Shown one piece after another: positions 53,789 through 57,475 of a DNA stretch of 64,000 bases (its first letter is position 1; each line of letters begins with the position of its first letter). Position numbers and translations under genes: made by a program. Location of the stretch: positions 1 to 64,000 of the forward strand of contig JAJYLW010000013.1 of the NCBI GenBank assembly GCA_021787475.1, read 5' to 3'. The stretch is from Actinomycetes bacterium (GTDB lineage: Bacteria; Actinomycetota; Thermoleophilia; BMS3ABIN01). The notes under the pieces are model-generated. The model was not told where the DNA came from, did no database searches, and was given only the letters and a program-made list of their open reading frames with translations.

Positions 53789-54412
53789 ATGATGAGGAGT
53801 TCGCGCCGCCAGGGGCGGGGGGAGCGCTACCGCGAGGGCAGGCGGCGGCCGGAGGGCCCTTCACTCCGGCTATTCATTGCCGCTGAAATCCCGCCGCCGG
53901 CGACCCGCAAGCTGGCCGGATGGCAAACGGAGTTCCTGGCATCGGACCGGTCTCTCCGGCTTGTGCCGGAGGCGCAGCTTCATATCACGCTCATCTTCCT
54001 GGGGCAGATGGGTGAAGAGGAGCTGCAGGGCGCTGCCGGGCAACTGGCGGAGTTGCGGCAGCAGGATCCGCTGACCTCGTTTGAGGTCACCGCTGGCGGC
54101 CTTGTCGGCCTTTCCAAGGGAAGGAACCTCAGAGTAATTGCCGCCTCGCTGGAAGAACCCGCCGGGCGGCTAAAAGCCATCCACGACGAGCTGGCGGCCG
54201 GACTGGTCCAAAAAAAAATCTACAAGCGCGAAAAACGCCGGTTCTTCCCGCATGTCACGATTGCCCGGGCGCGGGGCAGGGTGGCGCTTAATCCGGCGGA
54301 AATCCGGCCGGATCCGGTTAAATTTACAGCTGTCCGAATCACGCTGTATAATAGCATTCTCAAACCAAGCGGGGCCATTCACCAGGCCCTGGAAACGGTC
54401 CAACTGAACTGA
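53789..54412 (+). CDS. thpR: RNA 2',3'-cyclic phosphodiesterase (2H family)
   Basis: About 207 residues from the ATG at 53789 (a second ATG follows at once). The two H-x-(T/S)-x motifs of the 2H phosphoesterase superfamily are present: HITLIFLG (about residue 64) and HVTIARAR (about 155). The LRLFIAAEIPPPATRKLAGWQ N-terminus fits ThpR/LigT. It opens 2',3'-cyclic phosphates on RNA and can ligate tRNA halves in vitro. The N-terminal 28 residues are basic and not part of the domain. The frame is open further back to 53666, but that stretch is repeat A3. recA follows 12 bp later. Confidence 0.92.
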   Translation: MMRSSRRQGRGERYREGRRRPEGPSLRLFIAAEIPPPATRKLAGWQTEFLASDRSLRLVPEAQLHITLIFLGQMGEEELQGAAGQLAELRQQDPLTSFEVTAGGLVGLSKGRNLRVIAASLEEPAGRLKAIHDELAAGLVQKKIYKREKRRFFPHVTIARARGRVALNPAEIRPDPVKFTAVRITLYNSILKPSGAIHQALETVQLN

Positions 54413-55478: not shown

Positions 55479-55517
55479 CCGGCCGGCTGGCAATTGCCAG
55501 CCGGCCGGGACTTTTTT
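55479..55517 (+). terminator. Intrinsic terminator after recA
   Basis: A perfect 30-bp palindrome (two 15-bp arms, CCGGCCGGCTGGCAA and its complement; 55479-55508) followed by GAC and six Ts. A very stable terminator 16 bp behind recA. Confidence 0.85.
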
Positions 55518-55552: not shown

Positions 55553-55581
55553 TTGACAGGCCTGTCAAGGACCGATAGAAT
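55553..55581 (+). promoter_or_regulatory. Promoter with palindromic operator, upstream of the candidate RNA
   Basis: TTGACA (55553-55558), a 17-bp spacer, then TAGAAT (55576-55581). The -35 box is embedded in the perfect 16-bp palindrome TTGACAGGCCTGTCAA (55553-55568), a likely repressor site. Transcription would begin near 55588. Confidence 0.7.
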
Positions 55582-55587
55582 GAAAGC

Positions 55588-55871
55588 GTTGGAAATCTGC
55601 TTTGCATACAAAACAAGCTATCAACGATAGATTTTCTTGCTCTTCTTTGTATTTCAGGTAAATAGCAACACCAGAAAGCCAAAACGGGCTTAGTGAAAAC
55701 AGGCAGTCGGGTCGTTCACTTCACTAATATAAACCCGGTCGCCGGGCCGCTGCTTAAGCGGTTTGACGGCGCCGGCGCCGCTTACAAAGAAGGCTTGAAC
55801 CGGGCCTGAGGACCCGGAAGATACTTGTTTCCTTGACTATGCCGAGCAGGTGCTCGGCTTTTTGGGTTTTT
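55588..55871 (+). ncRNA. Candidate structured RNA (or rny leader with attenuator), about 285 nt
   Basis: Between the promoter at 55553 and the terminator at 55841 there is no coding frame but much secondary structure. A nested hairpin pairs GGAAAT (55591) and TACAAA (55607) with TTTGTA and ATTTC (55646-55655) around CTATC-AAC-GATAG. TTAGTGAA (55690) pairs with TTCACTAA (55720). CCCGG-TCG-CCGGG (55734-55746) and GC-rich GGCGCCGGCGCC follow, as does CCGGG...CCCGG near 55800-55816. It lacks the hallmarks of RNase P RNA (GAGGAAAGTC), tmRNA (CCA end with T-loop) and SRP RNA. It could be a 6S-like or other trans-acting RNA, or a leader that attenuates rny, whose start is about 70 nt beyond the terminator. 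Confidence 0.5.
55841..55871 (+). terminator. Intrinsic terminator of the candidate RNA, upstream of rny
   Basis: Stem GCCGAGCA / TGCTCGGC followed by TTTTTGGGTTTTT. It ends the transcript from 55588, or serves as an attenuator for rny. Confidence 0.8.
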
Positions 55872-55942
55872 AAGGCCGGAATCGGCGGTTTCGGATGGTG
55901 CGGGCAAACGCCAATTTGGCCTGGTAAAGATTGGAGTCAAAA

Positions 55943-57475
55943 ATGAATGTGGTACTGATTGCGGTTGTGGTGGCGGCCGTCGCCGCTGGGGCCGGCTATT
56001 TCCTGCGCAAAATGCTTTCCGAGGCCAGGATAACCGATCTCGAAAAGAGCGCCAAAACAGCCCGGGACGGGGCCGCCCGGGAACTTGAGACCATGCGCCG
56101 CACGGCGGAAGTGGAAGCGCGCGAAAAGTTGCAGCAGTTTCGGGAACAGGCGGAAAACGAGCTGAAGCAGCGCCGCGCCGAAATTCTTAAAGGCGAGCAG
56201 CGGCTGGAGGACAAGGAAAAGCTTATTTCCGAGCGCGACCGCGATATCCAGCGCCGTGAACAATCATTAAGCGACCGGGAAACCAATAACAAAAAGCTGG
56301 GCGAAGAGCTCGAGCTTGCCATCCAGGAAAACCGCAAACAGCTTGAGCGGGTTTCCGGACTCACCAGCATCCAGGCAAGAGAGATGCTGCTGAAACAAGT
56401 CGAAGAAGAAGCAAGGCATGATATGGCCAAGCTGATCCGCGCGGTTGAGGAAGAGGCGCGCCGCGAATCGGACCGCCGCGCCCGCAATATCCTTTCGCTG
56501 AGCATCCAGCGCACCGCCGCCAATCACGCCGCCGAGACCACGGTTTCGGTAGTGTCGCTCCCGTCTGATGAAATGAAGGGCCGCATCATCGGCCGCGAAG
56601 GCCGCAACATCCGCGCCCTGGAGAATATCAGCGGCATCGACGTTATCATCGATGACACTCCCGAGGCGGTAGTGTTGAGCGGATTCGACGGCGTCAAGCG
56701 GGAGATTGCCAGGCTCACCCTGACAAAACTGCTCGCCGACGGCCGCATCCACCCGGCCCGCATTGAGGACACTTACAAGCAGGCCAAGGCCGAGGTTGAG
56801 AAAACCATCATGGATGCAGGCGAGCAGGCAACGTTAGAGGCAAACGTTCATGGACTGCCGGAGAACCTTATCAAGCTGCTGGGCCGCCTTAAGTACCGCA
56901 CCAGCTATGGGCAGAATGTGCTTGCGCATTCACTCGAAGTCAGCCACTTGGCCGGGATCATGGCCGCCGAACTGGGCGCCAGCCCCAAACTGGTGCGTCG
57001 GGCCGGCCTCCTGCATGACATCGGCAAAGCTGTTGATCACCAAGTTGAGGGCACGCACGCCAGCATCGGCGCTAACCTGGCCAAGAAAAACAAGGAAAGC
57101 CAGGCAATCTGGCATGCTATTGAAGCGCATCATGGCGACGTCGAGCCGCAGACTGTGGAAGCCGTGCTCGTGCAGGCGGGCGACGCCGTCAGCGCCGCCA
57201 GGCCCGGCGCCCGCCGCGACAGCCTGGAAAGCTACATCAAGCGGCTGGAATCGCTGGAGAGCATCGCATTGAGTAAAAAGGGCGTGGAGAAATGCTACGT
57301 GATGCAGGCCGGCCGCGAAATCAGGGCGATGGTAAAGCCTGCCGAGATAGACGATGACGAAGCAGCCCTGTTGTCAAGGGAGATTGCCAGGGAGATCGAG
57401 AAGCAGCTGGATTATCCCGGGCAAATCAAGGTTACCGTTATCCGCGAGAGCCGGGCGACTGAGTTTGCGAAGTGA
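55943..57475 (+). CDS. rny: Ribonuclease Y
   Basis: 510 residues. One N-terminal membrane helix ([20 protein letters not shown]) is followed by a long charged coiled coil (about 30-200), a KH RNA-binding domain with [15 protein letters not shown] (about 215), and an HD metal-phosphohydrolase domain (about 325-420) with [11 protein letters not shown] as the HD signature and a distal AHHGD. It is a membrane-bound endoribonuclease starting mRNA decay. The start ATG at 55943 is preceded by TTGGAG 6 nt upstream; the longer frame begins at that TTG. It follows the candidate structured RNA, which may regulate it. miaB lies 136 bp downstream. Confidence 0.97.

Follow-up and report, generated by a model that had tools for sequence, protein, structure and literature searches.

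A conserved structured leader with an intrinsic terminator precedes rny in a family of Actinomycetota and is a candidate attenuator of RNase Y synthesis

Results

Gene order and transcription signals between recA and rny

The window analyzed here is a stretch of 64,000 nucleotides from an Actinomycetes bacterium of the Thermoleophilia (GenBank GCA_021787475.1, contig JAJYLW010000013.1). It carries, all on the plus strand, cinA, a thpR-like gene (2'-5' RNA ligase), recA, a leader, rny, and miaB. The rny gene was assigned by a match to Pfam PF12072, and the other gene names come from translations read by eye. The features of the recA-rny region are listed in Table 1.

Table 1. Features of the recA-rny region (positions in the window)
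Feature	Position	Strand	Basis or remark
recA strong terminator	55479..55508	+	Intrinsic-terminator stem, GC-rich, then ACTTTTTT
Sigma-70 type promoter, TTGACA-17-TAGAAT	55553..55581	+	Matches consensus at 11/12 bases
Leader RNA to terminator, ~275 nt	55588..55864	+	5' end deduced from -10 box
P0 5' strand, AUCUGCUUUGCAUA, candidate antiterminator	55595..55608	+	Complementary to terminator loop and 5' arm
P2 hairpin, CUAUC-AAC-GAUAG	55618..55630	+	Relatives checked: hairpin there, other sequence
P1 5' strand, CUUCUUUGUA	55642..55651	+	Pairs with 55783-55792; covariation
Pa, hairpin of UGGC...GCCA type	55663..55681	+	Weakly supported; AGCC/GGCU pairing could replace it
P3 hairpin, outer CGGG/CCCG, inner UAGUGAA/UUCACUA	55685..55737	+	Alignment of 15 sequences
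P4 hairpin, variable sequence	55740..55771	+	Sequence and alignment
P1 3' strand, UACAAAGAAG	55783..55792	+	Pairs with P1 5' strand
P0 3' strand, UAUGCCGAGCAGGU	55838..55851	+	Overlaps terminator 5' arm and loop
Leader intrinsic terminator, GCCGAGCAGGTGCTCGGC+TTTTT	55841..55863	+	Hairpin in 14/14 complete homologues
rny RBS, GATTGGAG	55929-55936	+	Sequence
rny (RNase Y), putative regulated gene	55943..57475	+	PF12072 match, ORF; start codon at 55943

Of all intrinsic-terminator stems detected in the window, on both strands, the one that follows recA is the longest; it is predicted to insulate rny from recA transcription. The leader promoter follows after a gap of 45 bases. Upstream, a candidate promoter for recA itself (TTTACA-18-TATAAT, 54323-54352) is located within the 3' end of thpR, and relatives have kept it (loci L009, L143, and L145).

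A sequence-only reading of this DNA had described a consensus promoter, a noncoding transcript of about 285 nt with convincing hairpins, and a strong terminator, and it had left two options, a trans-acting RNA resembling 6S or Ms1 and a structured leader controlling RNase Y. Both the near-consensus promoter and the terminator were found where that reading had placed them. The predicted transcript contains no open reading frame of at least 60 amino acids, and its length is corrected to about 275 nt.

Taken as bare patterns, such signals occur at chance level: 3 promoter-like patterns were observed in 4 kb against 1.1 expected, and 10 terminator-like patterns against 6.0 expected. The leader is nevertheless regarded as real because relatives have its promoter boxes, folded core, and terminator in the corresponding gap; these relatives comprise five other species of the genus and members of other genera within the family. 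The TTGACA and -10 boxes are kept at 15/15 homologous loci. These conservation counts cover the relatives whose assembly spans the recA-rny gap.

The leader terminator ends 79 bases 5' of the rny start codon. Since a pattern scan of the window found no promoter-like site between this terminator and rny, the gene apparently depends on transcription that starts around 55588 and proceeds past the terminator. As in an attenuator, the promoter and an intrinsic terminator lie on the strand of rny, with the terminator between the transcription start and the gene.

The leader is noncoding and matches no Rfam family

The predicted fold of the leader has an energy of -99.8 kcal/mol, compared with -79.8 +/- 5.1 kcal/mol in dinucleotide shuffles (z = -3.95; 0/200 shuffles as good), and the z scores of 13 of the 14 homologous leaders range from -2.1 to -4.5. 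Among the leader homologues, no short open reading frame preceded by a Shine-Dalgarno site is kept. We considered a leader peptide, as an ATG in the -10/start region opens 16 codons, and rejected it because neither the frame nor the start is kept in relatives.

A search of the window against Rfam release 15 returned nothing at curated thresholds and nothing credible below them. The Rfam cis-regulatory families, including riboswitches and T-boxes, did not match the leader at the gathering score, nor did the Ms1, RNase P RNA, tmRNA, and SRP RNA models. ARAGORN found neither a tRNA nor a tmRNA. The 6S model (RF00013) has no match at the leader locus, and the 6S RNA of this genome sits elsewhere (G000:C5:104156-104312, 75 bits). 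On these grounds, we rejected an identity with 6S RNA, Ms1, tmRNA, SRP RNA, or RNase P RNA. The earlier remark that landmarks typical of RNase P, tmRNA, and SRP RNA are missing is correct.

Comparative evidence for the folded core

In the structural model, P1 closes a domain that holds Pa, P3, and P4, and the P2 hairpin precedes P1. The P1 strands differ between the window (UUCUUUGUA/UACAAAGAA) and other genomes (UUUCCUUGU/ACAAGGAAA, CUGCUUUUC/GAAAAGCAG, and GGUUUCUUUGU/ACAAAGGAACC). On the alignment fitted to the model, the structure pairs in 90.4% of cells, and sliding the partners lowers this to 50% or less. The covariation score of 0.160 compares with at most 0.080 for slid partners (0/500 shuffles as high).

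Because a model-fitted alignment leans towards its own structure, alignment-free partner tests were added, in which each representative's own strands were compared with strands swapped among eight clade representatives (40320 permutations). We chose tests of own versus swapped partners because plain MAFFT, when aligning the core, puts P1 in the wrong place in three sequences. For P1, 8 of the 40320 permutations were as good as the own partners when the strands were chosen by hand, and 750 of 40320 when the windows were not hand-chosen. The comparative evidence supports the proposed leader structure, including covariation in P1.

The inner seven pairs of P3 are essentially invariant in 15 sequences, the flanks of its stem, CGGGCU and ACCCG, are conserved, and its loop inserts in G013 and G015 stay base-paired. 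An invariant inverted repeat (TTAGTGAA/TTCACTAA) could also be the DNA operator of a repressor, with everything else incidental. We consider this very improbable, since the spacing of the arms varies widely, the longer inserts remain base-paired, the distance from the promoter downstream to the repeat exceeds 100 bp, and other helices are conserved as well.

A 5' strand of the leader may compete with the terminator

Near its 5' end, the leader carries AUCUGCU, which is complementary to AGCAGAU of the terminator loop and 5' arm. CUGCU is kept in 15/15 homologues and UCUGCU in 14. In the window's genus, this pairing (P0) extends to about 13 to 14 pairs with one mismatch (AUCUGCUUUGCAUA with UAUGCCGAGCAGGU). 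The extension differs in G006, where ACACAC faces GUGUGU, and G-U pairs keep P0 where the terminator stem reads CCGGGC (G018) or the loop reads GGAU (G017). The near-invariance of the P0 core leaves the flanking extension and a few compensations as the main support for this pairing.

In the partner tests, 48 of the 40320 permutations were as good as the own P0 partners with hand-chosen strands, and 8 of 40320 with unselected windows. When the 5' end of each leader was set against its own terminator, the shuffle p value was 0 to 0.043 in the 13 leaders tested. The terminator core GAGCAGATGCTC occurs in 1 to 5 copies in each of the relatives' genomes searched (family f1), which is above the expectation for a 12-mer; because it recurs in this way, the terminator loop alone is not specific to rny.

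P0 and the terminator are mutually exclusive because they share bases. In the window's genus, the minimum free energy structure contains P0, and the terminator state lies 1.0 to 5.8 kcal/mol higher. In the sister genera, the minimum free energy structure contains the terminator, and the probability of P0 is at most 0.40. Overall, the predicted energies of the two states lie within 0 to 6 kcal/mol of each other. The leader therefore holds a conserved alternative pairing predicted to disrupt its terminator, with a near-invariant core and an extension that covaries.

Linkage of the leader to rny

R1, a covariance model built on the P1-closed core, finds one copy per genome in 15 genomes, all of the window's family. 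The copy lies directly upstream of rny in 14/14 genomes in which the locus is assembled, and the contig with the fifteenth copy ends inside the leader. Four family members lack an R1 match, and their assemblies also lack rny. Outside the window's family, R1 has no match in 249 genomes of the class and 296 of the phylum (partly the same genomes), and in the window genome it matches only the leader locus. R1 was built from these very sequences, so finding them again proves nothing; the test lies in the uniqueness and placement of the copies. In three draft genomes of the family (G007, G011, and G018), contigs break between recA and rny, a region of strong hairpins, and the leader or rny is thereby hidden.

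A stand-alone trans-acting small RNA, resembling 6S or Ms1 or serving as an RNase Y sponge, could lie beside an rny gene transcribed from another start. The locus does have the form of a complete transcription unit with a terminator, and the P0 state would give such an RNA paired 5' and 3' ends. We find this reading improbable because the linkage to rny is perfect with no separate copies, because the window shows no promoter-like site in the interval from the terminator to rny, and because the 6S gene is elsewhere and Rfam has no match. Of the two options left by the sequence-only reading, the 6S/Ms1-like RNA is thus not supported. The structured leader is well supported by a single copy always directly 5' of rny, by the lack of any other promoter-like site before rny in the window, and by an internal terminator that a conserved 5' strand could disrupt. 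As a by-product, the terminated leader RNA might nonetheless have a trans-acting role.

Terminator-bearing rny leaders in other lineages

In families f3 and f5 of the class, rny loci with enough upstream sequence were examined. A promoter lies 297 to 387 bases upstream of the RNase Y domain match, and in most loci a terminator lies 59 to 130 bases upstream of it. Complementarity that could provide an antiterminator is visible, with shuffle p values mostly between 0.05 and 0.4 because of the high GC content, and we regard these antiterminators as only suggestive. The leaders of f3 (L013, L018, L033, and others) share a block like GAGAGxTTTGGGAGGTTT between complementary AGGGGTC/GACCCCT arms, which, as read from the sequences, is a second lineage-specific structured rny leader. 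In families f4, f6, f7, and f8, no such terminator was seen in the loci read. Different, short leaders in f4 (L045, L048-L052, and L057) have no terminator; their -10 box, AGGAT, precedes conserved CCTGCA and TTTCCGAA-like boxes.

In the Desulforamulus order, 28 of 30 loci gave a readable leader. A TTGAC(A/T)-17-TAnAAT promoter is present in 28/28, and the leaders are 253 to 316 nt long. In 28/28, a 5' box related to UGGGAGAAAAUAGAAUUGGA pairs with a strand just 5' of the terminator, which is itself related to ACCGAG...CUCGGU-U7; leaders of this type were noted at L064, L085, and L165-L194. The probability of this 5' pairing is near 1 in 28/28, and it invades the base of the terminator (probability >0.1) in 14. 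Rfam has no match in the leaders of four Bacillota loci of this or a related type (L064, L085, L086, and L115). Locus L086 is on a contig labelled Deltaproteobacteria that carries a Desulforamulus-type rny leader and RNase Y, and this contig is probably mis-binned or mislabelled. Many other Bacillota loci have a promoter about 80 to 400 nt upstream of rny without a terminator.

R1 gave no significant match in 29 loci from f3, f5, and the Desulforamulus order. We therefore rejected homology of the window family's leader to the leaders of f3, f5, and the Bacillota; the likeness is one of architecture only. A motif shared across phyla, AUAGAU, is enriched (24/98 leaders against 8.4 expected) yet not universal, so it is not claimed. 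These surveys suggest that attenuated rny leaders, built on the same plan from unrelated sequences, are widespread.

Only in the window's family do the 5' pairing and the terminator clearly exclude each other; in f3, and for the most part in the Desulforamulus order, the pairing either sits right beside the terminator or reaches no further than its base. This bears on a passive reading, in which the terminator fixes a low rny level and P0 is a static end-closing stem that protects the 5' end of the mRNA, with no switching. The 5' pairing is indeed mostly compatible with the terminator in the Desulforamulus order and abuts it in f3. In the window's family, however, the bases of P0 fall within the arm and loop of the terminator. 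The two cannot both form, and their states are close in energy. We judge a passive leader to be unlikely.

Discussion

RNase Y initiates mRNA decay in many bacteria, and B. subtilis is the main organism in which the matching of its amount to demand has been elucidated. From the computed parts, their conservation, and the pairings, we infer readthrough, termination, and an input from RNase Y. We consider it reasonably likely that the leader is the 5' end of the rny mRNA and a cis-acting transcription attenuator, with RNase Y as the likeliest input. The cell would then probably decide at the leader terminator whether more RNase Y is made.

Transcription would start at or near 55588, and the nascent RNA would fold into the P2 hairpin and the P1-closed multibranch domain holding Pa, P3, and P4. 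The emerging 5' arm of the terminator, GCCGAGCAGRU, could pair with the earlier-made AUCUGCUUUGCAUA to form the P0 antiterminator and allow readthrough into rny. Alternatively, the terminator would form once its own 3' arm has been made. Anything that occupies, cuts, or traps the 5' strand, or that alters the P1/P3 domain, would set the amount of rny transcript.

That the choice between P0 and the terminator controls readthrough is what the pairings point to; that RNase Y itself is the input signal is less certain. Feedback by RNase Y is proposed as the likeliest signal because of the precedent in B. subtilis. The 5' strand of the leader is A/U-rich and contains G, and RNase Y of S. aureus prefers to cleave after G in A/U-rich RNA (PMC4608709). 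Spare RNase Y could cut this strand, so that the antiterminator is lost and termination is favored. A broader proposal, which we put forward as speculation, is that attenuation in a structured leader is a widespread and independently evolved means of controlling RNase Y across the class and the Bacillota. The leader's nascent 5' end would serve as RNase Y target and antiterminator strand at once, and RNase Y would sense its own spare activity co-transcriptionally and switch off its gene.

The main rival to an RNase Y input is a protein or ligand that reads the invariant P3 stem. An attenuator whose input is a small molecule or an RNA-binding protein recognizing P3 and the P1 junction would account for the riboswitch-like complexity of the leader, with its P1-closed multibranch domain, its invariant UAGUGAA/UUCACUA stem, and the conserved flanks of that stem. 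Control of rny only, and in one family only, would however be unusual for a metabolite riboswitch, and a purely invariant helix may point to protein rather than ligand recognition. We consider such an input possible but doubtful, and continue to favor RNase Y.

A conserved terminator-bearing leader would add a second, transcriptional mode to the control of RNase Y, and the recurrence of this plan with unrelated sequences suggests strong selection. Attenuation and autoregulated RNase leaders are already known, and the window leader and attenuation of rny appear to be undescribed. A literature search, which covered subscription papers only in part, found no description of an rny attenuator, and the main text of a survey of premature terminators (PMC2965389) does not mention rny. 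This suggests that attenuated rny leaders are undescribed.

Several known systems resemble the leader in part. It shares with 6S RNA (RF00013) a long rod-like fold, paired ends in the P0 state, and a similar size class, but it fails the 6S model, and the genome has its true 6S gene at another locus. As in T-box, trp-type, and riboswitch attenuators, a shared strand makes the terminator and antiterminator exclusive; unlike them, the window leader has no Rfam match and no leader peptide, and its antiterminator is the very 5' end of the RNA. The name of the Actino-pnp RNA places it upstream of pnp, a ribonuclease gene. It is listed as a structured cis-regulatory RNA in Actinomycetales (RF01688; PMC2864571, Table 1). 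It has another gene and another structure, and no match in the window.

In E. coli, a stem-loop in the 5' UTR of rne, the leader of the main decay-initiating endonuclease, senses the level of RNase E. The window leader would likewise be a structured leader of such an endonuclease serving as an enzyme-level sensor. The enzyme and RNA of the rne system are however unrelated, it acts on mRNA stability, and it is not known to use a terminator; the window leader has no Rfam match.

The closest comparison is with rny of B. subtilis, where RNase Y lowers its own synthesis and cleaves the 164-nt leader of its gene, chiefly within the first 50 nt (PMC10303841). The two systems share the gene, a long leader, a consensus sigma-A promoter, and, as proposed for the window leader, regulation via the 5'-proximal part. 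In B. subtilis, the mechanism is mRNA cleavage and decay, a terminator is not mentioned in PMC10303841, and none was seen in the related rny leader of B. pumilus (L124). The window leader differs from that of B. subtilis in having an intrinsic terminator and a 5' strand that competes with it, and its folded domain is larger.
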